64,000 nt of DNA from Loripinus fragilis (taxonomy: Eukaryota; Mollusca; Bivalvia; Lucinida; Lucinidae): the NCBI GenBank assembly GCA_964019695.1, contig OZ026522.1, forward strand, positions 77,159,601 to 77,223,600, read 5' to 3'. Position numbers and translations under genes: made by a program. How positions within the stretch are numbered: the first letter of the stretch is position 1; each line of letters opens with the position of its first letter. This document shows, piece after piece, positions 352-54,200 of the stretch. Below the pieces are notes generated by a model, which did not search any database, had not been told where the DNA came from, and was given only the letters and a program-made list of their open reading frames with translations.

Positions 352-593
352 GACCCTTTGTATTCGGCAAAACCCCTAAAGGAGTACTTTTACAAACAGT
401 GAAGACTCAGATGAAATGACACAAAATGCGGCATTTCATCAGGGTCTACACTGTTTGTTAAGGTAAAAAAGATCTTCACACAATACAATATATTTTTGAT
501 AATTATAACTGGACACCCCTAGATATGTACAAGGGATTATCCAAAGTTTATTGTATCAAACCAGAAGGAAGAATCCATTAGTATACAAAGGGT
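352..593. mobile_element. MITE-A copy next to the array
   Basis: Ends CCTTTGTATTCGGC and ATTAGTATACAAAGGG are inverted; the inside has a GAAATGnnnCATTTC-type palindrome (about 405-445). The right end overlaps the first 150-bp unit and is the source of the non-exon part of every unit. Confidence 0.75.
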
Positions 594-3270
594 AAACTGC
601 AACCTTCTACAGGTCATACCTACCTATCTTCCAATAACCTCTTGAGCGCTCTAAAGTCTTTAGTAACACTAAGTGTAGTAGCTGTAGGGATATCTTTCTC
701 ACATAATTCTAGCAATCTCTCTGTCCATTAGTATACAGAGGGCTAACTGCAACCTTCTACAGCCCGTACCTACCTATCTTCCAATAACCTCTTGAGTGCT
801 CTAAAGTCTTTAGTAACACTCAGTGTAGTAGCTGTAGGGAAATCTTTCTCACATAATTCTAGCAATCTCTCTGTCCATTAGTATACAGAGGGCTAACTGA
901 GACCTTCTACAGCCCGTACCTACCTATCTTCCAATAACCTCTTGAGTGCTCTAAAGTCTTTAGTAACACTCAGTGTAGTAGCTATAGGGAAATCTTTCTC
1001 ACATAATTCTAGCAATCTCTCTGTCCATTAGTATACAGAGGGTTAACTGCAACCTTCTACAGTCCATACCTACCTATCTTCCAATAACCTCTTGAGTGCT
1101 CTAAAGTCTTTAGTAACACTCAGTGTAGTAGCTGAAGGAAAATCTTTCTCACATAATTCTAGCAATCTCTCTGTCCATTAGTATACAGAGGGCTAACTGA
1201 GACCTTCTACAGCCCGTACCTACCTATCTTCCAATAACCTCTTGAGTGCTCTAAAGTCTTTAGTAACACTCAGTGTAGTAGCTGAAGGAAAATCTTTCTC
1301 ACATAATTCTAGCAATCTCTCTGTCCATTAGTATACAGAGGGCTAACTGAGACCTTCTACAGTCCATACCTACCTATCTTCCAATAACCTCTTGAGCGCT
1401 CTAATGTCTTTAGTAACACTCAGTGTAGTAGCTGAAGGGAAATCTTTCTCACATAATTCTAGCAATCTCTCTGTCCATTAGTATACAGAGGGTTAACTGC
1501 AACCTTCTACAGCCCGTACCTACCTATCTTCCAATAACCTCTTGAGTGCTCTAAAGTCTTTAGTAACACTCAGTGTAGTAGCTGTAGGGAAATCTTTCTC
1601 ACATAATTCTAGCAATCTCTCTGTCCATTAGTATACAGAGGGCTAACTGAGACCTTCTACAGCCCGTACCTACCTATCTTCCAATAACCTCTTGAGTGCT
1701 CTAAAGTCTTTAGTAACACTCAGTGTAGTAGCTGAAGGGAAATCTTTCTCACATAATTCTAGCAATCTCTCTGTCCATTAGTATACAGAGGGTTAACTGC
1801 AACCTTCTACAGTCCATACCTACCTATCTTCCAATAACCTCTTGAGTGCTCTAAAGTCTTTAGTAACACTCAGTGTAGTAGCTGAAGGAAAATCTTTCTC
1901 ACATAATTCTAGCAATCTCTCTGTCCATTAGTATACAGAGGGCTAACTGAGACCTTCTACAGTCCATACCTACCTATCTTCCAATAACCTCTTGAGCGCT
2001 CTAATGTCTTTAGTAACACTCAGTGTAGTAGCTGAAGGGAAATCTTTCTCACATAATTCTAGCAATCTCTCTGTCCATTAGTATACAGAGGGTTAACTGC
2101 AACCTTCTACAGCCCATACCTACCTATCTTCCAATAACCTCTTGAGTTCTCTAAAGTCTTTAGTAACACTCAGTGTAGTAGCTGAAGGGAAATCTTTCTC
2201 ACATAATTCTAGCAATCTCTCTGTCCATTAGTATACAGATGGTTAACTGCAACCTTCTACAGCCCGTACCTACCTATCTTCCAATAACCTCTTGAGTGCT
2301 CTAAAGTCTTTAGTAACACTCAGTGTAGTAGCTGAAGGGAAATCTTTCTCACATAATTCTAGCAATCTCTCTGTCCATTAGTATACAGATGGTTAACTGC
2401 AACCTTCTACAGCCCATACCTACCTATCTTCCAATAACCTCTTGAGCGCTCTAATGTCTTTAGTAACACTCAGTGTAGTAGCTGAAGGGAAATCTTTCTC
2501 ACATAATTCTAGCAATCTCTCTGTCCATTAGTATACAGAGGGTTAACTGCAACCTTCTACAGCCCATACCTACCTATCTTCCAATAACCTCTTGAGTTCT
2601 CTAAAGTCTTTAGTAACACTCAGTGTAGTAGCTGAAGGGAAATCTTTCTCACATAATTCTAGCAATCTCTCTGTCCATTAGTATACAGATGGTTAACTGC
2701 AACCTTCTACAGCCTGTACCTACCTATCTTCCAATAACCTCTTGAGTGCTCTAAAGTCTTTAGTAACACTCAGTGTAGTAGCTGAAGGGAAATCTTTCTC
2801 ACATAATTCTAGCAATCTCTCTGTCCATTAGTATACAGAGGGTTAACTGCAACCTTCTACAGCCCGTACCTACCTATCTTCCAATAACCTCTTGAGTGCT
2901 CTAAAGTCTTTAGTAACACTCAGTGTAGTAGCTGAAGGGAAATCTTTCTCACATAATTCTAGCAATCTCTCTGTCCATTAGTATACAGAGGGCTAACTGC
3001 AACCTTCTACAGCCCGTACCTACCTATCTTCCAATAACCTCTTGAGCGCTCTAAAGTCTTTAGTAACACTCAGTGTAGTAGCTGAAGGGAAATCTTTCTC
3101 ACATAATTCTAGCAATCTCTCTGTCCATTAGTATACAGAGGGTTAACTGCAACCTTCTACAGCCCGTACCTACCTATCTTCCAATAACCTCTTGAGCGCT
3201 CTAAAGTCTTTAGTAACACTCAGTGTAGTAGCTGTAGGGAAATCTTTCTCACATAATTCTAGCAATCTCT
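571..3270 (-). repeat. 150-bp tandem array, 18 units, derived from ATR exon N plus its donor
   Basis: Eighteen units begin at 571, 721, 871 and every 150 bp to 3121 with no insertion or deletion. On the minus strand each unit holds 97 nt of exon N (31 open codons beginning RLLELCEK plus two bases), the donor GTAGGT, about 34 nt of intron and about 19 nt matching the end of the MITE at 352-593. The exon part varies at few sites: a Thr/Ser/Ile codon, a Phe/Ile codon and an Ala/Glu codon; none introduces a stop. The leftmost unit (571-720) is the most diverged. Units 2-18 in transcript order lack the true acceptor, so they should be intronic. Confidence 0.95.
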
Positions 3271-3289
3271 CTGTCAGCTTTGTGTAGTC
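3174..3289 (-). CDS. ATR: ATR exon N (parent of the 150-bp tandem array)
   Basis: 116 nt after acceptor ATTATTATAG: DYTKLTERLLELCEKDFPTA then TTLSVTKDFRALKRLLED and two bases of Arg at donor GTAGGT. It aligns with human TRLTDKLLELCNK and HFKMLKKLVEE. The first 15 or so bases are unique; everything from the Thr-Glu codons to the donor is repeated 17 more times to the left in exact 150-bp steps. Reading through the donor meets an in-frame TAG at once, so only correct splicing is productive. Confidence 0.93.
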
Positions 3290-6200
3290 CTATAATAATG
3301 AAAATAATTTACAACCTTGAAAGTAGACAACTAACTGGTAATCTTAAACTTTTCTTGACCAATGAAATCTTCTATTAACCCTTTGTATACTGGAAACCCC
3401 TAAACTGGTACTTCCCTAAATGGGTACTTTGACAAACAGTGAAGACCCAGATGAAATGCAGCATTATGCTGCATTTCATCAGACATCAAAATTTAGAAAA
3501 TTCTACCTTTGACCCCTCAAAGTACACAATGGGCAGTCCCATACTTGTTATATCAATATGTTTGGGAAATTCCATCAGAATACAAAGGGTTTAGTAGGAT
3601 ACTATAAAGTTGGAATGTCCAATCAAATATTATGTTAAAGTTTATAATTTTCTTATCACATTATACAGTATTTACCCATAATGCTTGAAAAGATAGTCTT
3701 CAGAAACAGTGTAAAACCAGATCAGATTGTTCATGAAGGAGCTGTTTGATCAGGGTTTACACTATTTTCCAATTCCCTCACGATGCAAAATGATTCTCAC
3801 AGTTTTTTCATCAATAATCTGATCTGGATCTACACCGTTTACAATAGAGTTAATATCTGGTATCATACTGTTTTTGAAGTTTATATATTGTTTCAGCACA
3901 GTAATGTAAAAGCTAAACTGTTCTTTCGGACAAGAAAATTTTTCTTTGGACAAGTACATTATGATCATTTACTTGTCCTGGGCACGCACAAAATTTTACT
4001 ATTTCCGCACCCCTGAATGATAATAATTGTAATCCTGCAAGTTTATTGGATTAAAATCAGGAAGGAATGTAGTACATTAAAGTATCCAGCATGGTCAGGG
4101 TTAAAGAAGTGACATAAATGTGAAAATGTTGTTGCTTCATATAAGGTTACACGTAAGGGGATCAGGTCACATTAACTAAATGGATATTATGCAATTATTG
4201 ACTTATGTGGAGGTGGACATGGAGTGTTATTGAACTGAATGTCATATTGACCGACGCGGAGGGGAGGTCAATATGATTAAGTTAACTGCTCAATAACACT
4301 CCATGTCTACCGAAACATAAGTCAACAATTGTTTTATTATATAAAAAATGTATATTAAGCATTTCCTGCCATTTTGGACCATTAAAACCATTGACGTTAT
4401 GGATGGATCATGCAAAACTTCTTGACATTCTGATGTCACTTCCTGTAAGCCATGCAATATTACCGCTTGTTGTGTGCTTTGCAACGTCACGTCCGGCAAA
4501 CCATGTGACATGTAGTTATATCAGCGGCGGTGGATAGGCATTTTAGCCAATCAGAAGATGTTTATCTATAAATTATTTTATAATTTGTTTTCAATAACTG
4601 TTCCTAGATTTTAGATATTCTGCAGGCCTCCAGATAAGAGAGCTTATCAGAAAACCATTTTCTTTATTTCTCATCCAAAACATATGTTGTGGGTACTCAA
4701 AAGAACTGTCTCAATGAGACGGTTCTTTTGAGCACCCAAAACACATGTTTAAATTGCTGGGTAAGAAAATATTTACAATTTTACACTACTAAAATTTCCT
4801 TATCTGGATCTATATTCTGGCATACCTGAATAACCTTCTGTAGACTTGGATTCATTTCCCTGGAAAAGAAAAAATATGAGAAATGTCATCAGTAAATATT
4901 AGTATGTTCAAGCAGTTAACAACAAATAAATAGAGGATATTTACTTTTTTGAGGTGAATACCAAATATATTTCATCGAGTGTGTTGAAAACATTAGAATT
5001 TTCATGAGTGCGCAGCACAAATGAAAATTTCGATGTTTTCAACTCACAAGTTGAAATATATTGGGTATTCACCTAAAAAAAAGTAAATTTTCTTTTTATT
5101 TTATACTTTTTAGAAGATTTACAGTTAATCAATTTGTTAACCATGCTTCAAGCCGAATCACAATAATGTAAAAGAAGACAAAGGAGTATTTGTGACAGAA
5201 TATCTGGATCAATCTACATGATCTATAGTCATCAGGACTTACAGATAAAAAGAAATTTATTCAGCGTCAAAGTGAGACACAAATGACGTCATAAGCCACG
5301 TCATAACTTGTTGATGACGTTGCGTAGCGTAGGTTACATGCATTGCCTCACTCACTGAAGCAGGAGGTGTTAAAAATTCAAAATAGAAAAATTTCACCAA
5401 ATCTGAATTATTTTGGTACCAAAATGTTCCTCGTGTTCTAACTAAGAAAATGACTACCCACACTTGATGTTTTTGTTCACAAATAAGAAAGTTATACTCA
5501 CTTTGCTGTGGAAAAAATATCTTGACAACGCTTCACTCTCATTTGGTAGGAAGACTGCAAATCAGAAATAACTAAATTTTAAAACCAGTTCATTATGAAA
5601 GTGCTACTTATCAAATATTATATTCAGTAAGCTATTCTTTAGAAAGTTTTTACCATATGATGTTGTGGGAGTAATATAATACCATACATTGTATTTAGTA
5701 ACATTATGGAATGACGTCTATTACAATGTTTCGTACATAATTGCAAAACCATGATGTTTTAGCACCCAAAATGTGATTCTAGAGTATTTTTTTATTGTCA
5801 AACAATAAACAGAATCTTGTAATATTGAATGTACTAAACTTGTTTTGAAAAAACGATAAAATGCTTTACAAGCCTTGCATTTGACCTCTTTTCCCTAACT
5901 TGTTAAATAAATTCAATAATACAGGAGCACTCATGTTAGATCCTCTACTTCTTCAGTAGAGTATGTGCAGCTATCTGGTGGAGCTAGTCATCTAGGACTC
6001 TTTTTAAAAAACATCAAGATATAGCCATTATAATTATATCTATGCCAAACATTTACAATGTAGGCCCAGATAAAATTCTCCTAACGAGCAGTTTGATTGC
6101 CACCTATATAGACAAAGATAAACCAACATCTTTAGGCTTTTCTTATCCATCAGTTAAACCTAATAGGTTTTGAGTGCTCAAAAGAACTGCCTCATTGAGT

Positions 6201-9200
6201 TTTTGAGGGCTATGGTGTATGTTATAGGGCTATGGTACACATAATAGGGTTATGGTGTATGTTATAGAGCTTTGTTACACGTTATAGAGGTATGGTAAAT
6301 ATTATAGGGCAATGGCAAATGATATGGGGCTATAGCCTTCAACATGGACAGTAGCCCTATAACGCGTACTACAGCTCTACAACATGTAGTTAAGCCCTAA
6401 TCATGCAACATACATGTAGCCCTATGACATGTACCACATCCCTATAAAATGTACCATAGCTCTGTAACATAGCCCTATACCATGTACTATAATATAGCCC
6501 TAAAACATGTAACCTAGCCTTATAACATGTAACATAGCCCTATAACATGTACCTTAGTCCTAAAACATTTATCATAGGACATAACTGTTATTCAGTGGAT
6601 AACGTCATGTCATAAATAATGTTATAGCCACACGTTAAATAACATTTTCGGCTGGAACAAGTAACGCAACAACAATGCAAATAATGGTGTATGTTTTAGG
6701 CCGATGTTACATTTTATAGAGCTATGTTGTTTGATATGGGGCTATAGCATTCAACATGGACAGTAGCCCTATAACACATACTACAGCTCTACAACATGTA
6801 GTAAAGCCCTAATCATGCAACATACATGTAGCCCTATGACATAATGTACCACATGATGACCGACCATGGTCATGTGGCATATCAAATTGATGGGGGTGAT
6901 GAGAGATGAGAGGAACAGAATACAAGTAAAAACCATAGGGTAAAACTGGCGACCTTGGGGTGGTCAAAAGGTCAAATATCCTTAAATTTCAAAGTCAATT
7001 TTAAAGATTTGTTTACCAAACTTTGTGTGTGTTCTCACAAATAAAAGATATAAAACATATCAAACCAAATTTTCATTCTGTCGCCTGGGTCATGCCCCAG
7101 GGGTGGGAGATGTGGCTGTTGGGGGTCAAAAAATTGAATGTGGGGATTTACGATGCCGACCCATCGACTGCGCATTCTAGTTTGAATTAGTTTTGGGTGC
7201 TCAAAAGAACCATCTCATTGAGACGGTTCTTTTGAGTACCCACAACATACGTTTCGGCTGAGAAACAAGAAAAAATAAATTTGATAATTTCTGTTATGCA
7301 CTCTTAACTAAAGCCCCGAGGGCAATATTACATGTTTGAGGCTAAGGTACATGTTGATGGCAACAAACAGGTTTGGGTCTATAGTATACTTCTACCATGA
7401 CCTCTGAGCAATGACCATTGATTCATTCAATTCATTTACCGTTACAGTAACCCCTCAAAGCATTTTGTGGAAGAATAGCATGTTTTACCTTTGAAACTGC
7501 CATTAGAAGCCAAAGAGCTTGCTGTGGGTAGCTGACTACAAGTCTTGCTATAATTGCCTAAAAAAGAACAATATTTTATTATCTACTATGTAATGAAATA
7601 CAGGAAAATATTGATTAAAAATAATGCGTATATTTCACAGCCGTGAAAATATTGATATTTTCACGGGAGAGAAACCGTAAGATTGGAACTACTTTTTTCT
7701 ATTTTCTCAATATGGTCGAAGGGAAGCAATACTTTATGGCATATCTGCTTCTTTTCTAAGGGAAACAACTATTAAAAAGTCAGAGTTGCTTAGAAGCTTA
7801 ATAAAAGAAAGAGCTTTTATAAATCCGTCTGCTACAACTAGAAAATCAAAACAAATGCTAATGTAAAGTAAGATTCGCTTCTCTTTACCTTAAAAGATTA
7901 TGGGAAATTTGTAGATAATAAAAGGAAAATTCAATTGATTTTTGTTAAATATGTCTTTTATTTCACTCGTGAAGTGGATAATAATTATATTTCACTTGTG
8001 GCGAATCGCCACTCATGAAATATAAATATTGTCCACTTCACTCGTGAAATAAAAGACATATTTAACAAAAACATTTGAATATCCTCTATATATTAATTTT
8101 TCACCTGGATTAACAACTTGGCATGTTAGCAACTGAATTTTCACTTATTCTAACGCATTGTTGGATGTGATTTGATGCTCTTACTACTAATTTTAACCTT
8201 AAAGCCCCACCTATAATTTGCAGCAGAAGACAATTTCAAGTTTTACCGCCTTTTTGAAAATAACAAATAAGGCATGATATTTCATGATAATTGTCTGCTG
8301 GCAGACGAGTCTCATGAAATATCATACCTTATTTTTCTCTAAAATTAAGAAAGATGTCTCAAAATTTGTCATCTGCTGCAGTCGTGATTGACGCTTTAAG
8401 GGTTAACCCTTCATTTAACTCTCAAGTACCATTCACTTTCAGGGTTCATACAGGCAAGTTTGTGTAAAATTCAATAACTTTTCAAGTACTTCTAAATGAC
8501 TCCCTGGATTTTCAAGGACTACAAAATTATGGAAAAAAACTGATTTGCATGTTAAAATTCGACTTTGAAAATGCTACACTAAGATAATGAAGAAGTAGGT
8601 ATTAGAAATAAGTATAAAATTGTTGTGCTTTTACTCTATTAATTTGATTTACTCCATTAACAGTGTACACAGAAAAAAAGTTATACAAAAAATAGTTAAA
8701 TTCAAGGACTTTTCAGGGCCTTAGAGTAATTTTCAAGGCAGATTCAATTTCTTAATGTAGGTACAGTACAGCTCCGGTGGTTTATCACAGACCCACCGAA
8801 GCCGGTGGGTAAGTTTTTTTTGCCCACCGCAACCCCACCCGATGTTCCGCGAAAGTCGCCGCGGCGGGAAGGATTTTCCCCACTGCAAACCCACCGTAAC
8901 CCCACCGCGGGCAATCGATTTTACCTGTATGACCGCGGTGGGGCGAATGGTCGTATAAATGCTTGGCGTGTGACGTCAGAATGATTGACAGCTGTTAATT
9001 TAGACGCTGTTCGTGTAAAAGTAAATACATTAAATTTCCTTTAATTTCTTTTCCTTTTTCGCTTTGGTTTGTGTTTGTGGTGATAAATAAATATATTTTC
9101 ATACCCAACTGGAGTTTTGCTTATTTCACAGAATCTGACACGTGAGTGACGAACCTTATGTGTCAATTTGTGTGTATTTCACACAATCCCTGACGTTGAC

Positions 9201-12200
9201 AGCTAATTACAAGATTTAATCTATTCGAATTTAATCAACAGTTAAACACATACGCAGACCCCCACCCCCTGAAAAAAATACAAAGTTTCTTAGTAATGTT
9301 GGTCTGGATCCCTGGAAAATCACAAATCAAGCTGCCAGAATTTATGTTGGGGCATCATGGGCCCGCCAGCGAAACCAACGAAACGCGTCTCGCAGGCGGA
9401 CCGATGATGGCCCACTTTTAATGGTAATTAGGATCCTCTCTTCTCTCATGAAAAAAAACCCACCTCTGGTTAAGTTTTCTGCATCTGCGCATTTTTAGGT
9501 TATGGTGGCTTTCAGATTTAAATCAGAAGTAACTAAGGCCGCACCAAATAACTTTTAGATTACCATCCCAACCCACCCTTTTGAACAACCGTCCACCCCA
9601 TTTTTTATTTCCTTATAAAAGATTAAATTTCAAGGTAGTAAATGTTTCTTCGAGCACTGTTTTGTACTTTTAAGCAATCGGAAAAATAAATAAAAATAAA
9701 TTAAAAAAAGAAGCTCCAGCCCACCCTATTTTTTCAAAAATTTTATTTGGTGTAGCTTAAGTGAAAACAAAAAAAAACATTTGGTGTGTCAAACAGTGTG
9801 AATCTTGATCAGGGCTAAACTTCTGTCGGACCTGATCTAGACCAAAGCTTTCAAAATTGGGCCATCATCGGCACCATCTAATTGACGTTTCGATGGCGAG
9901 CTGTACCCCCTCTGACAAAACTTTCTTGATCCGCGCTTGTCTCTTGTTCTCACATTCACATGGACTGGATCAGGGAATAAGTGCAAATTTCCTACCATAA
10001 AATGATTGGTTAAGATATTCAGAAATCCAAAATTTCGAGCGAAAACTCGTCACTAAATCTAATCCGTAAATGTGAATGGAATCTCATCACCCTTGTAGAC
10101 TGAACCCGTAAACGTGTACTTTTACGGACAATGATGGCCCAGATTAAATTAAATAGCCCCCACAAGGGTCTGCACTGTTCGCAAAGTTAAAGAAGGAAAT
10201 TGTTTTGGACCTTCTCAAAATTGGTCTGCGGGGTTTCCTTAATGGTTATGTCAAAATCAGCCTACAATTACGCTTCTATTCCAATCAGCGAATAACAAAG
10301 GCGCTGATCAGACTGCACGAATGCGCATAGTGATCTGCATGGATTTGCGCCTGTGTTGTTCGCAATTCCAATAAGAAAGGCCCCGAGGTTATACAACTTT
10401 TTTCATGCTCAACTCTACTATGCAGGAAATTTCATATGCTCATGAAAACTAAAAAATGAAGATTTATATTTCTTTCAAACTCTCAGATGATGTGTTTATC
10501 ATGCTAATAATTGTCAAAATGCCAGCAGTTGGCATTTTAACATTTATGAGCACGATACATTTCGTGCTCAGCTGAGTTGAGCATGGCAAAAGTTTTATAA
10601 ATTGGGACCAGGTTTCTCGCGTCGAGGTTCAGTCACAATATTAACACAGAAAAATCCATTGATCTACAAAGGGTGATGTACGTAGTCTTTAAGCTGGAAC
10701 ACCACCGGCTTTTGAAAAATCGTTTAAACATGTACATGTGTATAAAAGTGAAAGTGTACGTGACTAACTGCACTTAACATCTAAAGGAGCCCATTTTTGG
10801 CAAAACATTTAATTCTTTCGACGAAAGTTGATTCCAAAAGTTAGAAAAAAAGTTTTCGATTGCCATTTGTTGCCCGACTGACAATAAATGAGCTGTGACC
10901 TGTGATTTCCAACAATGTGGCATTTTCACAAGTGTAGACTCAGATCAGCCTGTGCTGCCCCGTTTAAAGCTTAGAAATTCCATATAATGTTCAGTCAGTA
11001 GCTTAACACATACCACATTGTTGGAAATCTCATGTCACTCGGAAACATTGTTTCTAGCTATTTTTATCCACGTTCGTCGATTGTTAAAAGCGTTTTCGAT
11101 TGTCGCTAATCTAGTGTACATTTTTATGTGAAATTACAGCACTTGCGAGCATGAAGGGTTACAGAGGAGCCAGTTCAATGGATCAGTCTGTAGACAAGGG
11201 CTCAGGCTAGATTTAATAACAAGAGTCCCCCATCATATGCTATTAACTGGCCAAAATATGTCCCGGGTTTAATGATTTTCCCGGACAAATGAAACAGCAC
11301 ATGGGATAGCTTTTTTTTTTGCTCCGTGAGCTGGTGCACCGGGAAATGTGTGTGCACGTGTTTTTTGTTTGTTTTATTGATTCTTTACATCCCATCAACA
11401 ATCTTTCAGTTATAAAGGGACCGGTCTTCCTGGGTTGAACCAGTTCTATAAGCTACGATTAATGTTCTTGTTCAAGGACACAACACAGCACTTGACGCCG
11501 GTGAGGCTCGAACCCGCGGCACCTCGATCTCGAGTCAATCACTCTACCACTGAGCCACTGCGCTCCCTGTATGCATGTGTGTGAGTAAGTCGGGTAGGGA
11601 TAGGGGAATCTTTCATTGGACATAGAGAGGACGGCATTGATTAGCTTTGGTACTGGTTCAACCTTGGACATTAAATGATTTGACTGAAATTGTTTGGATT
11701 TGGACGTCACAACGCAGGCCCACTAAGACTAGATATTGCAGCTGCTTATCGAAGGAGTATAGGTTCAGATAAGGACAGGCAAAACATAATTGCCATGTCT
11801 ACATTGTAAATTGAATCTAAATTGTTTCAAACTGTATGATTAAAAGAAATTTGCAGAATGTACTGAGAACTTCAACATGCCAGTGTAATAGAATTTTTTG
11901 TTTGATGTGGTTCATTACGTTCCAATCAACAAAATATCTGTTATATCGGGACGGGTCTTCCTTGGTTGAACCAGTAATAAGCCAGGATTAATGTGCCTTG
12001 CTCAAGGACACAACGCATTGATGCCGGTGAAGCTCGAACCCGTGGCCCTGCGGTATCGAGTCAAGCACTCTACCACTGCATGCTTTATAAAAAAAGAAGA
12101 TTTTTATACAGTATATACATGTAGTTTATTCAACACTATTTCAATAGCGTCTGTGTAATTTTCATGCTTGCTTGTCGCTGATTTTTTTTTCTTCAAATCA

Positions 12201-15200: not shown

Positions 15201-18200
15201 GTGGCCTCATTTTGCAGCTCTCTCAGTTCGTCCAAAGAAAATCTGTATAATGAGGGTATGTCCCCAAACATATCATCATCAGGAACAGCGTTGTCCTGTG
15301 GGATGGCAGCTGAAACTTCCCTCGTCGCCTTCATCTCATCAAGTCTCTCGATAACTGTGGTCATTGCGTCCTCTAGTGCTGTCAGTCTCTTGTTGGTTGT
15401 GTCCTGCTTGCGGTTCATCGACTGCTGGTAATCCTTTATACAATCGAACATCTTCTCCATAGTCAAATTTACCGTATTCATCAGCGCCATCATCGGGTCT
15501 GACCTAAGGGGGGATTACCCGGCCTCACTTCCTGGTGCTGTCCTGCATAGCGGGCTAACATTTTGAAGTGTCCTCAGAGGCGTACTCTGTAATGGCCTTC
15601 TCATCTGTTCCATTATGCTCTCACGTAGCATCGCGGGCGACATGGGCTGGTGTGCCTCTTCCTCTTGCTCTGCCCTTGGAATGGCGGAGGTGGTGGCTGC
15701 AGGCAAAGGGTCAATGGCGGAGCTGGTGGCTGCAGGCAAAGGGTCAAAGGCGGAGCTGGTGGCTGCAAAGGGTCTTCCTTGCTGTTTGAAGCTGTAGCGA
15801 CTCTGTCAGCCTGTCCCGACGACCGAAAAAGCCTTCTCGCTGCTGGCTTTTCCTGCAATTGAAAATCAAATTTCTAGATATTCGTGACTGATGCCGTCTG
15901 CTGTCACTCTTGCACTATTCTTTTGGTCGCCTATTGCGCAAACAAAAAGAACACAGACCAGACTGCTCTAGTAGGAGCATGTGCGACCAGGGTTCTTAGT
16001 GTTTGCCTCTGTGATAAAAAACAACAAAGAATTGAATGCATTTTAAAAATTGCAGCAGACAGCGATGTGGCAGCTGATTTTACCTCATCAAACCAAATAT
16101 AAATAACCCTTAATGTGCCAATCGCAACAAAGTCTTTTGCTTTTCTCGTCTGCTGAAATGTTTAAGAAGCCTCTGTGTCAAACAGTGTGCACCCAGATCA
16201 GACTGTTCCTGTAGATGCAGTCTGTTCTGAATGTACACTGTTTGCTTATATATTTAATTTGTCAGTAATGTTAGACAATTATTTGCAGCAGACGACTTCA
16301 GCAGACGACATTTTCAGATGCATTTTTTCTTGGCGCTTTAAGGGTTAAGTGTAACTCATTTTTTTTCTTGTTATTAAGGGGCATTTTGCACTCCTGGCCG
16401 GAGACGGGAATTATGAACGCACTGGCTTCGAACTGCAATTTATAGCGTTGTCGAAGTATAACTGAACCGGTTTGTAACAAGTATAATTTGGTAAATTTTT
16501 AACAAAAAGGATGGTTTCTGTTCATCCAGAACTATACTTTCAGCAACTTTAAATTAGACCTATTAATTCACGACAATAACAGGTGGATATGTTGTGACAT
16601 TTCTCGTCAATGATATGCTGACCTAACATTATTTTTTGTCGGAAAGTCAGTGTACAATGAATAGGAGGAAAGCTCAGCAGCCACCTCTTTATAACACGTG
16701 TTGGCAGTACGGAGCTTTTACACGATGGAAAATTGAAATTTTTCATTCATAAATCTTTTGATTAACACACCCATAAAGTTCGTCATTCGGATAATTCGAG
16801 TCAATACTTCTGGTTCAGTTGAACATGCGTATACTGGGCACTGGTGTATTGGTGTCCCTGCCATATACGGACGGGCAAAACAAACGCTACATGCAAAATT
16901 TCAAATAAATTGCCCAGAAAGAAAATACATGTAAAATTAGTGACAGCAGTTAGAATATTCATTTCTATTAGCCTAACATTCATGATTGGCAACAAACTAT
17001 AATTTCAAATTACTCAAATGCAGCTCGTGTCTGGAACCACATGTCTAACCTGACAAAACTCTTATGTAGCGTTTCTTTTGCCCGTCAGTATTTAGTCAGT
17101 GATGTACATTTTATGTGGGGGTTTTGGGGGATGGTGTACTGTATATTGTCAGCTGTGTGACATGTGTGAAATTGCCCAGCCAGTGACACTAGGGTTATTG
17201 GAATATGACATACCTGATGCAACGTGTCAAAATCTTGAAAGTATATATAACTCTCGGTTCTAAAACCTCCATACACAAGGTTTGTTGAGATACAAGCGTA
17301 AAAATGCCTAAGCTTAAGATTAATGAAAAAACAAAATTGGAAATAGTGTCTTTTGTACAAAATGGACTAACCGTGAAACAAATACATAGGAAACTTGTTG
17401 ATCGCGCGATACATGTATCATAAAATGCGGTGAAATATCATGTTAATCAGTATTTAGTTGGAAATTTTGACATAGGTTTGCCTCCATTGAAAAAAACTAG
17501 GAAAGACAACAAAATTTCAGAACACAGTCTTGAAGTGATCAGGGAGGTGTTTCGAAATGACCCTTATGCGACAAGCACGGATGTGAGAAAACAACTTGCG
17601 ATCCATGGCACGGAAGTGAGTGCCGCTACCGTAAAGAAAGCTATTAAGACAGCCGGGTATGTGAACTCGGAGCCAAGATACTGTCAGTTAATTAGAAACG
17701 CCAATCAAGAGAAACGGGTGGATTTTTGTAATTCTCTTATTGAGGTGAATGATGCGCTTGACAATATAATATTTACGGACGAGTGTAGTGTTCAGCTGCA
17801 TAATAACAAAACGACATCATACAGACGGAAGGGAATGCTAACACCATATATGGGTAAACCAAAACACCCGCTCAAGGTCCATGTGTGGGGTGGGATTAGC
17901 CGAAAAGGTCGGACTGAAATAATCATATTTGATGGGATAATGAAATCTGATTTTTTTGTGGAAGAAATTCTTAAGAACACTCTCCTTCCCTTTGTGAGAG
18001 AAACTTTCGGAGTGAACCACCGGTTTCAACAAGACAACGATCCAAAGCATCGCTCAAAATTATCACAGAAGTTTATGGAGGACAATTCTATCAACTGGTG
18101 GAAAGACTGGCCTTCAGGTATATCTAGAGCAAAACGCCCACTAGGTCCCTGTTTTGGTCAAAAACACATTTCCACAAAAAATGCAGCACAGCAGTAACAC

Positions 18201-21200
18201 ATCAATATTAAATGTTGCCACAACACTTGTGCTAATCAGGCTGTGCTGATGCGCAGACTGAGCAGCGCCGATATTGTGGACAGTTGCAATTATTTAAGAC
18301 AAGTCCCCATCCCCTACAAGTACCAACCCAGTAAATAGCTGTGTATACAAGGGACGTTTTTTATGTTCGTAGAGAGGTAGATTTAATGAAAACGGCGAAA
18401 GTAAATGCATACATCATGCATATATTTGGAAAGATTGAGCTTTTATCTTTACATGCAACCTTAAATTATTTCAAAATACATTACTTTAATGCCTTCTAAG
18501 AGGCAAAGACATACCTATATATGGCACACTGGAAATATGGTAGAAATGTGACATTTAATGGACTTAGTCTCTGACAGAACGTTAGAAACAATTGCATGAA
18601 AATGGGTCCATAGCCATGCACAGCTTCTGAATCTTTGGCTGCAGATCGAGGACACCACGTGCTACATTATCATATAAGCATTTTAGCAAATGCATAGCAA
18701 TTATTGCATATGGAAGATTTGTTTGGAACCTAAGCAAATTGAACAGTAGGCATATAAACTTTTATTGTAAAAAGTTGACACAAGTAGAAGTTGGACACCG
18801 GCTTTTGAATGTGACTTAATATGTTAGCTGTAAAGTAGTATTATATTGTTTCGTGCTTATATGGTAGATGAGAGTGTTATGGTAACTTTCATCCAAAAAA
18901 AAAGTTTATACTTTTGTTTTAGTAGAAATGAACTGCAAAATAAATAGCCTAGGGGGTGCTAAAATCCCTTATTTTGTACATAAATGACGTCATGGAGCGT
19001 TACTGTATTTAGAAAATACATTAAAACTGTTTGTGTGCTTCTAAACAGGTGTTGAAATCACTGCAATAAGAAAATTATGCAGATCCGATTGTTATTGTGT
19101 TTTCTACCCAGGGTTGATTTACCCCACCCACTTTTTATAACATGGGGGTATGCCAGTTCCGGAAGTTGCCAGTTACACGCTTTAATCGATACATCAATAT
19201 AACTGCTGACGAATGATTGAGTATACCATGTGCTATGAAAAACCAGAAGAAATTTTAAAATTTGTTAATAATCGTAATTTTAACAGATATAATAACTAGC
19301 ACTTGACTGTGATTATTTTGGTATATTGATGGGTGTTTTAAAATTGTTATAGAAGAGCAAACAACAAACTTATAGTTTTGCTGCACTTGTCGACGATTAG
19401 CGTTTGAATAATTAATTTTGGTGGTGCAAAAGAAAAATCGGCTTGAAAAATGCTTATATCACCATAGCGAATGGAACTTAACAACGTCTTATTTCCTGCT
19501 TGCTGCGTGGTTAAAATGGCATGGATTTCGACCAGTGTCCTTTATTAGCCCTATTCAAAGCTATATATCTTGACCGAACTAAGCGCTAATGATGTAAAAT
19601 TTATATCAGTTGATAGACAAAAGCCAGACCTTTCAAAATATATATACTTAAGGCACCGTAAGTTCTATATTTGTAGAGATACAGCCCGATTCTACGAACA
19701 TAAAAAATGACCCTCGTAGGTGGCATGCGACGCATTGTTTTGAAAACAAGGAAATGTAGAGCATGAAATTAAATTTGAATTTATAAATGTATATGTATTT
19801 TTTTTTCAAAAAGCATCTCAACAACGTACATGTATCGGTGGAGATACGGCTACAGAGACGAGCCAAAAATCGAAATTTCGCCTGTTGCAACTTTGTACAA
19901 ATGCATGTACTTTCCAGTAAGCGTACACCAAAGGCGCTGATCAGACTTTGCGAATGCGCAAGCTGGTCTGCTCCTTTGTTATCGCGATTTCTCGGCGCAA
20001 GAAAACCTGTCTTAGGTACGTAGTTTGCACATCTATGCAGTCCGATCAGCGGCAAATTGTTATTCACTTATTGGAGATAATCATAACTTATCTTTATACA
20101 AACGAAGTTTGAGCATTTTGGTAGTCTCTGTAATTGAGTACGTTGGATCGAGTATGACCCTGATTAAATGGCGCCTTCCTGGAGCATAAGATATTTCAAT
20201 TAGCGCGTATCTCTGACCGCCTCACTTTATTCTTTATATATAAGTGATCACCAAATGCGTAAGGGTGTGCAGGGGAGGAGCCTAGGTTTTCCGGTAAGGG
20301 GGTTCATATGTTTAGAGGGTTGGGGGTTCGTTTGGCTGATTTTATATCATTTTCCTTAAATATCCACGGAAAAGAAATAATTTGGTCTCATTGAGGCCAA
20401 ATTATTCCCTTTTCGTTGGATATTTAAAAAGGGGGGGGGGCAGGGATGGGGTCCGAGCGAACCCCCTGAACTCCCTCTGGATCCGCCGCCACTGATGTGG
20501 TCGATTCTTATGTATTTATGACGACCACTGCATGGCCGTAATGAACCCGAAAAGTCTATACTTTGGCAAATGGTGGAAATCCAGATGAAATGCTGCATAA
20601 TATTGTATTTCATCTGGGTCTTCACTATCTGCTAAGTCATAAATGAACTAAAGTATTTCAGGAATTGTTTGGCTGAAATGGTTTTGTGTCCCTTGAGCAT
20701 TGAGCGTTACCCCCTTCCATCCGCACCTACGTAAGTCTGAACATCACACACAATAACGTCCGCTCTCAAAGTTGTTTGGCTGAAATGGTTTTGTGTCCCT
20801 TGAGCATTGAGCGTTACCCCCTTCCATCCGCACCTACGTAAGTCTGAACATCACACACAATAACGTCCGCTCTCAAAGTTGTATAGTTTTGATCAGAATT
20901 TTATGAAACTTTGTTACATTGAAATTTGTTTAGTACTTTTCTTCAAGTTCGATGAATGTCCATATCGCACCATGCATTCAGTCCGCTTTCTAAGATGGAT
21001 AGTTATGATCAGAATTGTTTGAAACTTGGTCACATGGTTTAGTGTCATTATGTCTCTCATGAATGGTCCATGTTGCATCATGCCCTCAGCATTCAAGAAA
21101 AAAACTATGAGAATTTTTGCAAAAGCGGGGGCAACTGTGTCCAATGGACACATTTCTAGTTAATTGGTTTATTGCCGAATCGACCCGGATTCTATTTTTA

Positions 21201-27200: not shown

Positions 27201-30200
27201 GCTGCAAGGTTAAGGGGATATATCTTTCAAAAGCTCTTGCTGCCGATTGCGTAAAGTGATCTATGTGAGATGTATAAATTGTTCATACAACAATATGGCC
27301 GAAGGTAGCCGTCTCCTTTATAAAAAGCATTTTTTGTTTATTCAGGAAAAAAATCATGCAAGTAAGAGCTTTTGAAAGATATATCTCCTTAATGTTTTAT
27401 TTCTAAAGTTCAGGATTATTGAAATTTACAACATTCACGGGGCCGAAATCGTTGGGGCCGAGTTTGTCATTGGCCGAGATTTCCCGGAATCCCTTAAAGT
27501 AATACGTTTTGTAGGCATACTGCAAGTTTACTATTTGAATTTCTAAAGTTCAGGATTATGGAAATTTACAACTATCACCCATGTACATATAAACAAAACC
27601 AAAGAAAAAGGAAAAAACGGGTTTTGCTCATACCTGTACGCCATCTACGTGTTCGCACAACGTATGAATGCTGCCAATGTATATACATTGTATATATATG
27701 AATAAAAAAAAAATAAAAAAAACAACAACAAAAAAAACAGGGTTTGATTATACATGTACGCCATGTACGTGTATGAACAACCCCTGAATGTAACAAGACC
27801 AAACTCTGCTCTGGACCTGCGTCGCGGGAGCAAATCGTCAAGGTGTAAACAGTCGATATGCAAAGTTCAAATAAACAGGAATGAAATCAGATTTCACCCA
27901 AATTTCGCAATGTAATCTACAGTAAGCATTTCAGATGGAAAAAAGTCTATCAAAAATGAGATAAAATTTATGAAACGTGCACAATATAGGAGGTGCACAT
28001 CTTCAATATGTGAACAATAATAAGGCAACTTTTGAATTAAAAGGAATGAAAATGGAGTTACAGATTATCCAAACTTGTCACCCCTAAAATGTTGCGGATG
28101 GATGGACAGATGGGAAAATATCTAGGTTCAACACCCATCAAAAATGAGAAAAAACAATGAAACAATCTCACAATATAGGAGGTGCACATTTTCAATGTGT
28201 GAACAATCGTTATGCAAAGTTTGAATATAAAGGAATGAATACTGTTGAAGTTACAGATTACACAAACTGGGCACCTCCTAAGCATTTCAGATGGAGAAAA
28301 ATGTCTATGTTCAACACCCGTCAAAAATGAGAAAAAAATTATGAAATGTGCACAATATAGGAGGTGCACATCTTCAATGAGTGAACAATCATTGTGTGAA
28401 GTTTGAATACAAAGGAATGAATACTGTTGAAGTTACAGTTTACACAAGCTAGGCACCCCCTAAGCATTGTGGATGGAAAAAATGTCTAAGTTCAACACCC
28501 CTCAAAAATGAGAAAAAAATTATGAAACATGCACAAAATAGAAGGTGCACATCTTCAATATGTGAACAATCATTTGGCAAAGTTTAAATAAAAATGAATA
28601 AAAACTTTTGGAGTTACAAATTACACAAACTAGGCACCCCCTAAGCATTGCTGAAGGAAAAAATGTCTAAGTTCAACACCCCTCAAAAATGAGAAAAAAA
28701 TTATGAAACATGCACAAAATAGGAGGTGCACATCTTCAATATGTGTACAATCATTAGGCAAAGTTTGAATAAAAAAGAATGAAAAGTTTTGGAGTTACAG
28801 ATTACACAAACTTGGCACCCTAAAGTGTTTCGGACGGACGGACAGACGGACGGACACACGGATGGACGGACGGACAGACGGACGGACGGACGGACGGACG
28901 ACCGGACGGACGGAGTGGACCCACTACTAGACCTGCTTTCGCTAAAGCGACACAGGTAAAAATAGGCTGGCCAACGAAAGTACAATATGATCTGTGGGCT
29001 AACATGAAAGGCCGAATCAATTGGACTCGTATAATAAACAATGCAGGGCCAGTTTAGACGTCACAGAATGCTGCGTTGTGCACTTTGCTTTCTCGATGTA
29101 ATTTCAAAACTTTCCTGAATAAAAGCTATATGCAAGTACGACAGATGAAATTATTTGAAATATAAAGCTACTATTTTTGGTGAGAGGTAACTATTGCAAA
29201 CAGTGCATACCCAGTCAAAATGCTGCACAACAGCATTTTTCAGGGTCTACACTATATGCATAGATCAGAAATTTTATCATTTTAGAAAATTTTGCACGGT
29301 AGCGGACAATTCCATACACCTACATGAAGTATTAGCTTACATATACACGTATTTAACCTAAAAAAATACACAACTACAACACAAAAGAAATTACATCCTG
29401 AGAATGCTGTCCACGCAAAATATTAAAAACCTACTTTACCTCATCTTGGGTTTGAATCAGGCCACGTCTCCTAACTTGGTACTTGTTATCTTCATGGTAC
29501 TGGACCAAAAAATACGCATCAACCTTAGTAAGTTGCCTAAGAGACATTGTGATACACAACAAAATGTTTCTATTTAGTTCACAAAAAAATGTTTTAAGAC
29601 ACGAAAATGAGAACAGAAGAAAATCCAGCGATAGCACAATAAATCCGAAGAGAACAATATCGACACAAGCACTAGTACAAAAATATCACTTTGATAAACA
29701 GTGTCTGCATGGTAGTCTTTAAATACTCATGTACCATCATGTTTTTCTCATAGACTTCGAGCTAAAAAAGGTCCTGCTCCCCCCCCCTAGGGAATTTTGC
29801 AGACATATCCTATCTTGAAGAAAATTTCAAGCCGCATCTTTTAAGAGATGTTTGCACTCTGTGCTCCGGGGCGTTAGTCTCTGACAGCCTGTTACATATG
29901 TTACTGTAACAAACTAAGGAAAAAATCAAAATGAAAGTTTGAGCTACAGAAAGAAGACATTAAACCATCTAATTATTCAAATTTCTTATGTAGTTTGCAA
30001 GCTGGATCCCTAAGCTACATAAAAGCAGCATTTTAAACAAAATTACAGCCTTCAGTGCTGTTATATGCGTTACATAGATTAAATTTCCCTTTTGAAAGTT
30101 GAAATCGTGACTAACATCATTCATTTTACAGACAATTTGTGCATTTTTACAAGTGTTTTTAATCTTAGTTTACTAAAATACTCATTTGACTAATAGAAAA

Positions 30201-48200: not shown

Positions 48201-51200
48201 CAACCAACCAACCAACAACACTTTTTAGACCAATGTTTTTAAATGTATCTGTCGGCTTGGGGTCTGTCGTTATGGCATGTGATCTCTCAAGGTCCACATA
48301 GTAATTCGTACAGTTATGAGACAAAGTATATTGTAATCTAATGGACATCTGGGCGTGCCTTATAAAGGCAGGATCTAAGCAGAAAAGAAGAAGTATCAAT
48401 AGTTAGATACAGAAGTCTGATTGGTCCATTGTAATTATATTGAGGGGTCACAGATAATAATTTTCAAAAAAACATTATTTAATACTTCTTTCTCTGAAGA
48501 TCAATTTTGTCTTAATTAGAAAACAGTGCAGATGAAATTTCATTGCGTCTTCACTGTTTGCAAAAGTACCTGTTTACTGGTGTTTAGTTTGTGGCCTAAA
48601 TAGAGTTATTTTGTTAATATAACTTAGATAAACAAAACTTTGTACGTAAAGTTGTGAATATTTTCTTATGCATCAGTTTTAACATGTTTTGAGTGCTCAA
48701 TAGAACCAACTCATCTCATTGATACAGTTCTTTTGAGTACCCTTTAACATTTTGTTTTGGTTGACAAAATTTATTTTTAATCATACACTCTTATCTATGC
48801 TTCATGTGTGTTTTGCTACATTTGCATATTGAGCCAGTTCATGAAATTTTGGTGCTAATTGCATATACCTAAACCCATTCGTAAAACATGCATATGCAGC
48901 TATCTAGTGCTGCTAGGTCTAAATCTTGGCCCAAGCCTTCATCTACATCCCACTATGTCTGTGTGAGCACCTCAGGCTCTGGCTAAACTGCATGTTTGCA
49001 CAGGCTAATTCTAATAATTCAAACCAAAACATATGTTGTGGGTACTCAAAAGAACTGTCTCAAAATTATGTATTGGGTGCTCAAAAGAACTGTCTCAATG
49101 AGACGGCTCTTTTGAGCACCCAAAACACATGTTTTAACCCATAGGTAAGAAAATAATCAAATTTAATCTGGGACATTGCTGAATACTGAAAAATAATACA
49201 GTGTGCACTTAATATTAGGGTAATTAGTTATTACCTTATTTTATGACAAAATATTTTAATGGCATGTGGGCTAACAAATTCGACAGTTTTGAGAAACAGT
49301 CACTGAAAAAAAGTTCTTACGCTTGTCTAGCTATGTCATCTTTATCTTCAATGAGAGTAGTCATGATTTTATCAAAGTATTTTGCGAGATAGAAATGTCC
49401 GTCTTCCCACTCCGGATTGATCTCAATCACCTCCTTGTACTGTTTCACAATGGCGTTGCTTTCTTTGTTCGAAGTCTCTTCGCTGTACCGACCATAAAGT
49501 AAGAGAGCCTGAAAATACATAACAAAATATAGGTATCACACATGTTTTTTCATGCATTAACATAATTTTTGCAAGGTCCCGAGGAAGGTGTTTGAACACG
49601 AGGCCGATAGGCGGAGTGCTCAAACATCTCCCTAGGGACCCGGCAAGTGTTAATTCAATGAAACAAAAATGTCTGATTGTTATTTTTGCATATTTTACCT
49701 TATTCCAACCAAATTTGCACTGAAAACGCTGTTAAAACATTAAAATATCCATTTTCTTGCACTTAATTTCTCTAAACAAAATGGCCTTGACTGTAAACTT
49801 TCGATCATAACAACGTCATAGCCATATGCAATGTTTTCGTGAACAAAAGCATTGGCAAAATAATCAGTCTGGTGTGCAGAGCATTCTGCATATAACATCA
49901 TGTAAAGAATTCAGGGCTCATTTGAAGTATTTTGAAGTTTAAACCCATGTTCAAACAGCATGTGAATCTCCTGATTTGAACATGGATTTTCGTTAATTTT
50001 ACAATGAGTTAAAACAACTACACCAATAGGTTTCTATGCAAGAATGATACTTATCATATATGAGATGCTTTATGTCCCAGTCAACAATTTTTCAGTCATG
50101 GCAGGACATTTCCTGTTTTCCTGGATTGAACCAGAAAGACACTTGCTCAAGGACAAATGAAAATAGTCAATAAGCAATGCTTATTAGATACCCCCCGTAC
50201 AGTAAGATTCGGTGAAAAACTTGGCAAGTTATAGTTCAAACCAGCAGACCTAAGTTTTGAAAAGAAGATTTCAGTAGAATCTGTGCAAACAAAAATTATA
50301 AACTCCTTCATGCATTTGTTCAATGTGTCTACATTGTATCCACAAAGTATCAAATTGCTCCATCACAGGCTCATCTGAGTCTACACATGTCAAAATACCA
50401 CATTGTTGGAAATCACGTTGCGGCTCAAAATTCTAAAATCCTCAACACAAGAAACTTGATTCTTGAAACTTGCAGTTTGCTGTCTACAAATAATTAACGA
50501 TTTCAAGTTCAAATGGCCAATAGTCTTTTTAATAGATAAAATGAAAATAAATCAGAAAAGTTGATATAATTTGCCTAATTCAGTATTTTGAGATTGAGTT
50601 TCTATGGAAAGTTTGTTTGTTGCATGGCGCCTTCAATCTAGTATGGGAGATAATGAGTATCTGTTCAAATATTAGATTATATACCATATGATCATTTTTG
50701 ACATTCAGGCAAATATTGTCATCATTTGGATGAAAAAAAACTTTCTTACCTAGTGACATGGGGTTCATACAAGCATGGCTATTTTTATGTAAAATTCAAG
50801 GACTTTTCAAAGACTTAGATATGGCTCTCCAACACTTTCCAAGGGCTGCAAGTTTCTTGTTTGTTTGGACTTTTTATGTCCCAGACAACAATTTTTTAGT
50901 CATGTCTGGATGGGGGGTTGAATCAGTACTAAGCAGCAAATACAGTGTCCGCTCATGGACTCTACATGAAAAATTCTGATTTACACTTTATGATTTAACT
51001 TAGCAAATGCTGGACTGAGACACTGGGGAAATTAGCATTAGAAAATTAGCATAAAATTGTTGTGCCTTTATTTGGTTCACCAAATAAAGGCACAACAATT
51101 TGATATTAATTATGGTCTCCATTAACAATGTTTAACCTAAGAGAAAATATAAAATTCAAGTACTTTTCAAGGCTTCAGAGCAATTCTCCAGCACTTTTCA

Positions 51201-54200
51201 AGGCAATGTAAAATTTCAAGGACTTTTCACTGAAGCCCTTCATATTCAAGTACTTTTCAAGCCGGTGAAAATCCTGCTCCTAATTATACAGACAACATAC
51301 CTGTGCATACACCTGCCTTCTTGCTTTCCCCTGTTCACTTGTGTCAGTCTTTAGTTTAGAAGCATCACTGAAGTGGACCTGCATTTCTCTCTCTAGAAGG
51401 AACAACATACCTGTGCATACACCTGTCTTCTTGCCTTCCCCTGTTCACTTGTGTCAGTCTTTAGTTTAGAAGCATCACTGAAGTGAACCTGCATTTCTCT
51501 CTCTAGAAGGGACAACATACCTGTGCATACACCTGTCTTCTTGCCTTCCCTTGTTCACTTGTGTCAGTCTTTAGTTTAGAAGCATCACTGAAGTGGACCT
51601 GCATTTCTCTCTCTAGAAGGGACAGTGCCTGGTCATTGTAATCCTACAACAAGAGAACAATAATGTCCTGAAGTGCTCACCTTATCCCGAGTCAGAAAAT
51701 CTCTAACCCTTTGTATTCTGGATCCCCTAAATGAGTACTATTGCAAAGTGAAACAGTGAAGACCCAGATAAAATGCAGCATAATACAGTTTTTAAAGGTA
51801 AAAAAGATTTAGACAAAAAACTGCAATATTTTTTTTAATTATAACCTGACACCCCTAGGTATATACAATGGAGCATCCCAAGTTTATAGTATCAAACCAG
51901 AAGGAATAATCCATTTGTATACAAAGGATTAATATAAGGTTTAACTAAGTCAAATTCATCCTAGGACCGCCATTTAAACAAACTTTATAAGGCCCACATC
52001 TCCACTGTTAGGTTGTCTCAGCTAATGGTTATCCGAGCCTTCTCTGATGTTTAAGTGGCTTTTCCATATTTTGATATTTGCCACTAACATCGGTAGTGGC
52101 AAATATCAAAATAAAGAAAAGCCACTAAAACGTCAGAGAAAACTTGGAATAAACTAATGGATACACCATACGAAAATTGACTCCAATTTGTTCTATAGTA
52201 TCTGAAAAAATGTTAAACATGTACATGACAATTCAATATGAGCCAACTTGGCTGAATGGTAAAAGGTCAACGTTCACCTTCGGTACTTATATATAGTTGA
52301 TTGTCTCATTAGGTTAAAATGCAAGCCAGTATAATGACATTGGCTTCAATAGTAAGAGAGCAATCATTTCAATGTTTCCCATATCAATGCATTAGAAATC
52401 AAATTTAAAATTGTTGTTCTGTCATAGTCCACCTAGGATAAACATTTGAACAAACTTGGTGGTGCCCACATCACCAATGCTACATATCAAGGAGGGTCAT
52501 CCACCTTTTGGTTCCATAGGGAAGCAGGCCTCCAGATAAATGTGTGTAACTGAAAATTAATATTATCATTTCTCAACCAAAACATTTGTTGTGGGTACTC
52601 AAAAGAACCGTCTCCAATGAGACGGTTCTTTTGATCACCCAAAACATATGTTTAGAATGCTGGGTAAGAAAATAATTACAATTTTACGCTCAAACTTTTT
52701 GCTTAACTTGACCTATGAAGAAGTTTTTGAAAGGTTTTGTCTTGGTCATGAATTTTGAAATTCCAACAGCTGTAGCCATTCTAAAAATTATGACCAGAAA
52801 GATAACATTGTCTGTTCTTCTGAGCAGGAGTATTGCTTGCCATTTCTGCATACTATAAATTCAGAAATGATTGGCGAGGGTTTTATTTTCACAAAACTTC
52901 GCATATACAAAGTTTCGTGAAAACACACTCCTCGCGAAATGGGGAAATCACTCTGTCAATTACTGATATATGCAAATCATGTCCTAGTGGCGAATTTAAA
53001 CTTGGCAAGTATGTCTTTTAACGCTATTCGCGAAAATAAAATTCTCCAGAAAATTTCCAGATTTACAGTAGTTTGATATTTGTGAATATTACTCATTATG
53101 CTCAAGTGACTTTAACATGGCAAATTTTTCGAGACATTTCTTTTAAGTGCCAAAAACTTATGTTTGATAGATCTATAAAAAATTGATAATAATCATTTTT
53201 GGAGGTTTTGTATATTTTAAAGTCTAGGTCCCTATAACTCAAACTACTGATGGTTTGAGAAATAAAACCTAAGGTCCCATGACTTTATGAGATTTGACTA
53301 TATGAGTTTTGGCGAGTTCAATGTACATACCTTTTCCCAAAGCCACTTAGCTTTCTCCAGACAGAACTCTGGCATTTTGTATTCACTGGCCTGTAGCAGA
53401 GAGCTGTAGGCAGTCTGTAGATAGCCTGCCCTGAAGATAATATACACAACATACTGTATGAGGACACAAAACAATAAATATGTGAGCACAGTGAAAACTA
53501 TGATCAGTCTGTGCAACTATACCCAATCTGATCAGAGCTTTTAGGATGCAAGCACAAAAACTATTTCATGCTATCAGCTAAATTCTTATAAGGTTGGTTG
53601 AACAAGGTTCATACAGGCAAGTTTGTATCAAATTCTAGTACTTTTAAAAAGCTCCTATGGTTTACAAGCACAACAATATCACGAAAATACTGATTTACAT
53701 TTTTAAAGTCAACTCAAAAAGAGCAGGATGAGATGATGGAAAAAAGAGTATTAAGTAGCACAAAATTGTTGCACCTTTATTTGGTGCAGAAATAAAAGCA
53801 CAACGATTTTATACTGATTTTGGTCTACATTAACAGGGCGTCTACATTAACAGGGCAATCTTTAAGAAAATAGTAAAATTCAAGTACTTTTCAAGGTCTG
53901 AGAATAACTCTCCAGCACTTTTAAATGCAGATTCAATTTTCAAAAATTTACAAAAAAGTCTTTCATATTTAAGTACTTTTCCAGTCTGTGCAAACCCTGG
54001 GTAATACACAAGCTGGTCTGAGATGTAGTTGGGTCCATTAGTCATTTTATTTTTTGTCATGATGATGCAGGTCAAACTATTCACTTGGTTAAAACATACA
54101 TGCACAATTTAGTCAGATAAGGCCAAATAAAAAAGATAAGTGTGTTTCAGGCAACAAGTCTGAAAATTTTAATTAAGGTAGGCACACATTACTTTTTTTA

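Follow-up and report, generated by a model that had tools for sequence, protein, structure and literature searches.

An 18-unit tandem array of part of a coding exon and its donor site in an ATR gene, compared with exon stuttering

Introduction

Exon stuttering, also termed sequence stuttering, was described on the dot chromosomes of the chicken by Hron et al. in February 2026 (PMC12954441). According to that article, over 90% of source sequences come within 1 base of an exon border, 1-44 copies are present, the exons themselves are left intact, and 190 of 5,572 dot-chromosome introns (3.4%) are affected, a pattern that its authors tie to GC-rich dot chromosomes and to G-quadruplex (G4) sequences, though the dot-chromosome location forms no part of their screening criterion (PMC12954441). 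Variation of intron length between individuals belongs to the same description (PMC12954441). The abstract states that stuttering was unreported in any other vertebrate, to which the discussion adds GC-rich genes of the gerbil, with data not shown (PMC12954441). Within the open-access literature searched, this article alone was returned for either term, and no other precedent for exon arrays was found there.

Two further systems are related in part. Tandem duplication has been reported, in a Drosophila study, to give rise to new introns (PMC2891723). Small duplications that involve exons are frequent in flies, section 10 of the same article citing 1901 duplications, 624 of which contain exonic sequence but no whole gene. 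In oysters, satellite-like arrays carried by transposable elements are reported to be dispersed through the genome (PMC7492417, PMC8268682). Here we examine an array of 150-bp units in an ATR gene, together with comparable arrays elsewhere in the same genome, against these systems.

Results

On the minus strand of the window (the whole 64-kb stretch of DNA analysed; GC 36.6%, on a chromosome of 99.5 Mb), predicted exons L (5502-5554, 53 bp), M (4826-4859, 34 bp) and N (3174-3289, 116 bp) join in frame with exons O to S, predicted to the left of the window, with exon O at approximately C11:77149095-77149224, 13.5 kb beyond exon N. The joined L-S peptide of 313 residues aligns end to end with ATR of solved structures (E 3.4e-133), whose chains are presumably human, and a Pfam search of the ATR peptide returned PI3_PI4_kinase (2.1e-39) and FAT (5.9e-24), with HEAT_ATR below the cut-off; the kinase exons follow downstream of the array, in frame. 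A second peptide joined from window exons matches in order over its residues 74-303 to residues 1950-2177 of chain 13de_A (whole-sequence E 3.4e-66), its first two exons matching ATR weakly (7.6 and 6.3 bits). From a comparison in which full-length ATR proteins exceeded the length limits, the protein relatives, given as identity with query cover in brackets, included Mytilus at 77% (74%), Batillaria at 77% (74%), Patella at 81% (57%), Branchiostoma at 71% (57%), chimpanzee at 62% (100%), Pinctada at 60% (73%) and Tegillarca at 50% (100%). The DNA is likely that of a mollusc. No second ATR-level locus was found when all 70 first-look candidates were scored against the 313-residue piece; a pseudogene or second copy of ATR was rejected because the best off-locus match reached only 42% identity and E 3.8e-8. 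Judged from these predicted exons the array-bearing gene is ATR, in agreement with the first-pass annotation of this DNA, even though exon N by itself matches ATR weakly (E 0.003).

TRF reported a period of 150 with 18.0 copies at 574-3275 (96% matches, 0% indels), and a regular 18-copy array with a score of 4991 is far beyond chance. Cut from position 574, the array resolves in the unit table into 18 units of 150 bp each on the minus strand (574-3273), of which 15 are distinct, with 18 variable columns. Read on that strand, each unit comprises the last 100 bp of exon N with its donor, followed by 27 bp of intron, TTAA and 19 bp from the end of a miniature element (MITE), so that the unit, first presented as an ATR exon, is exonic over 100 bp and non-exonic over the other 50. 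Unit 18 (3124-3273) includes the final 100 bp of the genuine exon N and is continuous with the complete exon, whose acceptor (TATAG/GAC at 3289, the slash marking the exon border) accompanies this rightmost unit only, whose donor is GATAG/GTAGGT at 3174, and whose prediction is supported by its in-frame join with M and O and by the ATR alignment. Units 1-17 (574-3123, minus strand) are extra copies that carry the donor and have no authentic acceptor, the units starting after the first 14-16 bp of exon N. The donor TAG/GTAGGT and the peptide TERLLELCEKD-FP-ATTLSVTKD-R-LKRLLED, with a few replacements, are present in 18 of 18 units, and none of the 18 contains a stop in its exon part. These observations bear out the earlier reading of the locus on several points, namely 18 indel-free units of exactly 150 bp, RLLELCEK...LKRLLED on the minus strand of every unit, 17 extra copies of an exon 3' end with its donor, and continuity of the rightmost unit with a complete exon whose acceptor lies at 3289.

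At the left edge of the array unit 1 runs straight on from the MITE and has ACAAAGGG, as do most other copies of that element, while units 2-18 have ACAGAGGG or ACAGATGG. That a single exon N was falsely expanded in this one assembly is very improbable, for a false repeat would not yield 15 distinct units out of 18 and edge units with the expected flank-specific bases, and nine other exons bear similar arrays that differ in length and divergence. The periodic stretch measures 18 x 150 + 2 bp, the 2-bp excess being read as an overlap at the first breakpoints, and the identical unit pairs in the unit table (4/9, 6/10 and 11/14) are what would be expected from unequal exchange.

A genome search with one unit had been proposed in the first-pass annotation, and when unit 2974-3123 was compared with the whole genome (1.987 Gb, 685 contigs) all 18 matches fell inside the array and none elsewhere. 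The array is therefore a single-locus intragenic array and not a satellite family, in which a monomer recurs at many loci or builds large arrays, whereas here there is one array of 2.7 kb. Exon sequence is also repeated within one gene by functional tandem exon duplication, as in mutually exclusive exons. Such duplicates have both an acceptor and a donor, whereas the copies at exon N have no authentic acceptor and are unusable as complete exons.

To the left of the array, at 354-592, lies an element that we take to be a piggyBac-type MITE, delimited by the CCC...GGG ends common to its genome copies, the last 19 bp of which (574-592) are part of unit 1. The family is large: among the best 40 of 4312 first-look candidates, which were those scored, most full matches span query positions 9-252, the two ends of the query, and GGG is followed by TTAA at the right end in 13 of 19 other fetched copies. 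The family thus has the CCC...GGG inverted ends and TTAA target duplication of the piggyBac type. The copy at 354-592 is itself flanked by AAGA and TAAA, and its own target duplication has therefore decayed. A second element with the same ends occupies 3379-3589 in the intron upstream of exon N, with TTAA on its left and TTTA on its right. Eight matches to the family occur in the window (353-600, 3378-3483, 10103-10197, 20558-20649, 29190-29253, 48413-48586, 51706-51932 and 61277-61361), and 11 in 104 kb of joined sequence around it, whereas random stretches totalling 50 kb contain none.

The presence of a MITE end inside the unit could suggest a mobile satellite, that is, a transposon-borne tandem repeat holding an exon fragment by chance, and Helentrons bearing satellite-like arrays are reported from oyster (PMC7492417). 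The exon N array resembles the oyster arrays in being a short tandem array in a probable mollusc with transposable-element sequence near and inside it; however, the oyster arrays are dispersed, and the unit here occupies a single locus and is two-thirds coding exon (PMC7492417, PMC8268682). The array stands at the native exon, its unit is matched nowhere else in the genome, and no TRF array (period at least 20) touches any of the 19 other copies of the MITE within 1.5-kb flanks. Moreover, a copy of the family lies near three of the ten exon arrays described below (those at ATR exons N and K and kinesin a) and is absent from the fetched stretches, some with short flanks, of the other seven. Of the alternatives considered, we regard this one as the least credible.

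The ATR gene contains a second, smaller array, which had been overlooked in the first-pass annotation, as had the MITE end in the unit. TRF applied to 104 kb of the locus identified a 110-bp unit in 3.0 copies at 51291-51624 on the minus strand (51.3-51.6 kb), composed of 104 bp from the 3' part of predicted exon K, the donor CAG/GTATGT and 6 bp of intron, the complete exon K being at 51521-51643 (minus strand, 123 bp, same donor). When exons K-S were blasted against the 104 kb, K returned two extra copies and O one 27-nt match (E 2e-4); exon N aside, the remaining six of the nine exons returned self-matches alone. A 38-bp array of 2.7 copies at 44433 was rejected as a third ATR exon array, since no ATR exon was recognised in it by eye. 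Two other features of the ATR introns were observed: a 107-bp unit present twice at 20665-20882 with 100% identity, a very young tandem duplication, and an open frame of 257 codons on the plus strand (17424-18194) that presumably resembles a Tc1-type transposase.

Evenly spaced matches in mTOR and SMG1 surfaced in the genome search with ATR, and in total ten arrays of at least three copies were identified in nine genes, nine of donor type and one of acceptor type. The mTOR array (positions 1805-7120 of G000:C18:46605601-46615600, stretch L046; gene E 1.1e-16) has the highest copy number among the arrays read, with a 161-bp unit in 33.0 copies over 5.3 kb (98% matches, 0% indels), and SMG1 (gene E 7.5e-22) has a 127-bp unit in 3.9 copies (0% indels). 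A DEAD-box helicase carries a 142-bp unit in 6.9 copies, and kinesins on four chromosomes carry arrays a (145 bp x 7.0), b (141 bp x 13.0), c (107 bp x at least 30.9) and d (123 bp x at least 5.1) in stretches L050, L051, L052 and L053, the last two copy numbers being lower bounds because these arrays reach, or nearly reach, the end of the fetched stretch. All four kinesin arrays are located on the P-loop exon, though other kinesin exons were matched equally strongly. The sole acceptor-type array, in a class II PI3K (357-1756 of G000:C6:91552401-91554600, stretch L048; gene E 2.8e-27), repeats the end of an intron and the 5' part of an exon as a 140-bp unit in 10.0 copies, with the complete exon last.

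The nine donor-type arrays share one layout, in which the complete exon comes first and is followed by copies of its 3' part with the donor and 5-57 bp of intron. The repeat begins 2-55 bp past the acceptor and takes in 74-140 bp of exon, and the source exons of the eight donor-type arrays other than that at exon N have open frames. Indels are at 0% in six of the ten arrays and at 3-7% in the helicase and kinesins b-d. The excess over whole units is 4 bp in the 110-bp array, 3 bp in mTOR and 1 bp in kinesin a, with none in PI3K. Unit GC ranges from 0.36 to 0.45 in the nine donor-type arrays, whose units yielded no G4-like motif, and GC is 37% over 154 kb; GC richness or G4 as a cause was rejected on these unit values. 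In a myosin gene, one decayed partial exon copy with donor was seen about 650 bp downstream of the exon (138-294 and about 829-948 of G000:C19:11382301-11383500, stretch L054), separated from it by what we take to be a tRNA-like short repeat, labelled by eye; this two-copy case was kept out of the array count.

We next considered whether the repeated sequences bear signs of use. Eight changes occur in the exon parts of the array at exon N, of which 5 are replacements (two at F, two at one S codon, and one A>E) and 3 are silent, against an expectation without constraint of 66% replacement, 31% silent and 3% stop (silent share p 0.71). The absence of stops, to which the first-pass annotation had called attention, is true of all 18 units but weighs little, because eight exon changes at about 3% stop each leave a 0.78 chance of none. 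Coding constraint on the extra copies thus shows no clear sign, the changes being close to expectation, and selection for open copies was rejected on the same counts. Exon columns vary less often than non-exon columns (8/100 vs 10/50, p 0.059), and the nine columns around the donor show zero variation; these observations leave weak room for constraint.

Should the first donor be read through, a stop follows one codon past it, and use of a later donor would therefore remove the ATR kinase domain. Where the MITE end meets the exon, an AG arises after TTAACCCTCTGTATACTAATGGAC whose upstream tract has 11 of 18 pyrimidines. Nine of ATR's own acceptors range from 10 to 16 of 18, and use of the copies as pseudo-exons via this AG is therefore possible. 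The repeated donors, together with the junction AGs, might be imagined to modulate ATR splicing or processing of the intron by serving as U1 decoys or poison exons, and such a role would fit the 18 identical donors, the GT kept in 119 of 119 located copies across all nine donor-type arrays, the AG kept in 10 of 10 copies of the acceptor-type array, and the stops that later donors or pseudo-exons would introduce. However, invariance of the donor is largely expected when divergence is this low (multiplying out the column counts gives roughly 0.05, with columns labelled exon that take in some intron because the reference unit was cut near the donor), kinesin array c varies at 5 of 9 donor positions, and silent changes are not in excess. 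We consider a functional array unlikely, if less so than an assembly error.

Four protein families were surveyed, with rows collapsed by hand to loci (PF00063, 74 to 73; PF00454, 73 to 29; PF00271, 116 to 112; PF00225, 125 to 85) and the best candidates scored (65 of 266, 111 of 111, 150 of 211 and 122 of 327, respectively). By hand count 8 of 299 exon loci have arrays, a figure whose denominators are rough because some helicase rows look intronless or transposon-like. PF00454 was not a blind choice, because it was selected after mTOR and SMG1 had appeared in the ATR search; the blind families PF00063, PF00271 and PF00225 gave 5 arrays and one two-copy case in 270 loci. The survey itself is blind to two-copy cases and to arrays with copies under the E cut-off, one suspicious pair having been fetched.

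Tandem repeats as such are common in this genome. One random stretch (L037, G000:C11:16194247-16204246) holds a 57-bp unit in 48.6 copies at 354-3124 and a 41-bp unit in 51.7 copies at 3492-5612. Arrays in the background with periods of 80-200 and 2.8 or more copies numbered 7 in 215.7 kb, with the two ATR exon arrays excluded, 3 of the 7 coming from a single 10-kb stretch. Against this small background basis, 5 donor-only arrays were seen in the blind set where 1.1 were expected (p 0.005, or 0.012 with rate uncertainty; 271 loci used, 270 on recount). The ratio of donor-type to acceptor-type arrays is 9:1 (two-sided p 0.021), 8:1 without the starting array (p 0.039) and 5:0 in the blind families (p 0.063). 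Both the enrichment at exon borders and the donor bias are kept as leads, because the denominators are rough, the samples small and the families not random.

Discussion

The array at exon N agrees with chicken stuttering, as set out in PMC12954441, in that a lateral part of an exon with its splice site is repeated in tandem in the adjacent intron, in that the repeat reaches the exon border and includes the splice site, here as in the other nine arrays, and in that the source exon is intact, open, in frame and aligned to ATR. Copy numbers (1-44 in chicken, about 3 to 33 here) and frequencies (3.4% of dot-chromosome introns in chicken, the hand count of 8/299 exon loci here) may be set side by side (PMC12954441). 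In contrast to the chicken, the sequence here is AT-rich and probably from a mollusc, the chromosome measures 99.5 Mb, nine units have no G4-like motif, 6 of the 10 arrays have 0% indels, the arrays are mostly of donor type, and the association with dot microchromosomes is absent (PMC12954441). The Drosophila case is likewise a small tandem duplication of exonic sequence with a splice site, but there an intron is created at a new position, whereas the copies here are contained in an intron that already existed, with amplification reaching 33-fold (PMC2891723). The array had been proposed as an undescribed satellite type of its own, peculiar to ATR; with its unit at one locus, the same architecture in eight other genes and chicken stuttering published in February 2026 (PMC12954441), this proposal is not retained. 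To our knowledge, the present arrays are the first known case of stuttering in a probable invertebrate and in AT-rich sequence, and with a donor-side bias.

Taken together, we assign a probability of roughly 0.8 to the reading that the array is exon stuttering in ATR, formed by local duplication and expansion, tolerated, and removed with the intron. A MITE would have inserted 27 bp behind the donor of exon N, after which an error of replication or repair, using about 2 bp of homology, would have duplicated the 150-bp stretch from exon to MITE end, and unequal exchange would have expanded and homogenised the duplication to 18 units. The 17 partial exons would then leave with the 13.5-kb intron, the array persisting because the complete exon is transcribed ahead of its copies and would offer its donor first; leakage to a later donor would meet the stop noted above and give ATR mRNA without its kinase domain. 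The same process would have acted on other exons of the genome, mostly at exon 3' ends, and the best supported general mechanism is duplication with 0-4 bp of homology, unequal exchange, and survival where the complete exon is met first.

A donor bias might arise where splicing during transcription settles on the first donor, since an upstream run of acceptors would be used early and harm the mRNA; the amplification might also be tied directly to transcription or the 5' splice site. More tentatively, and with the odds somewhat against it, exon-end stuttering may constitute a genome-wide class here, aimed at or kept at exon 3' ends with their donors and independent of GC and G4, with very many donor arrays in essential genes, and may be a source of intron growth and splice-site decoys, its donor bias having either of the two origins just named.

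As the arrays resemble strings of exons, gene predictors need caution. That stuttering turns up in ATR, mTOR, SMG1, a PI3K, a helicase and kinesins of an AT-rich, mollusc-like genome speaks against any need for GC richness or G-quadruplexes, and it provides a second system for asking how exon ends come to seed repeats. With a single acceptor-type array among the ten known so far, whether splicing order controls which duplications survive becomes a testable question.
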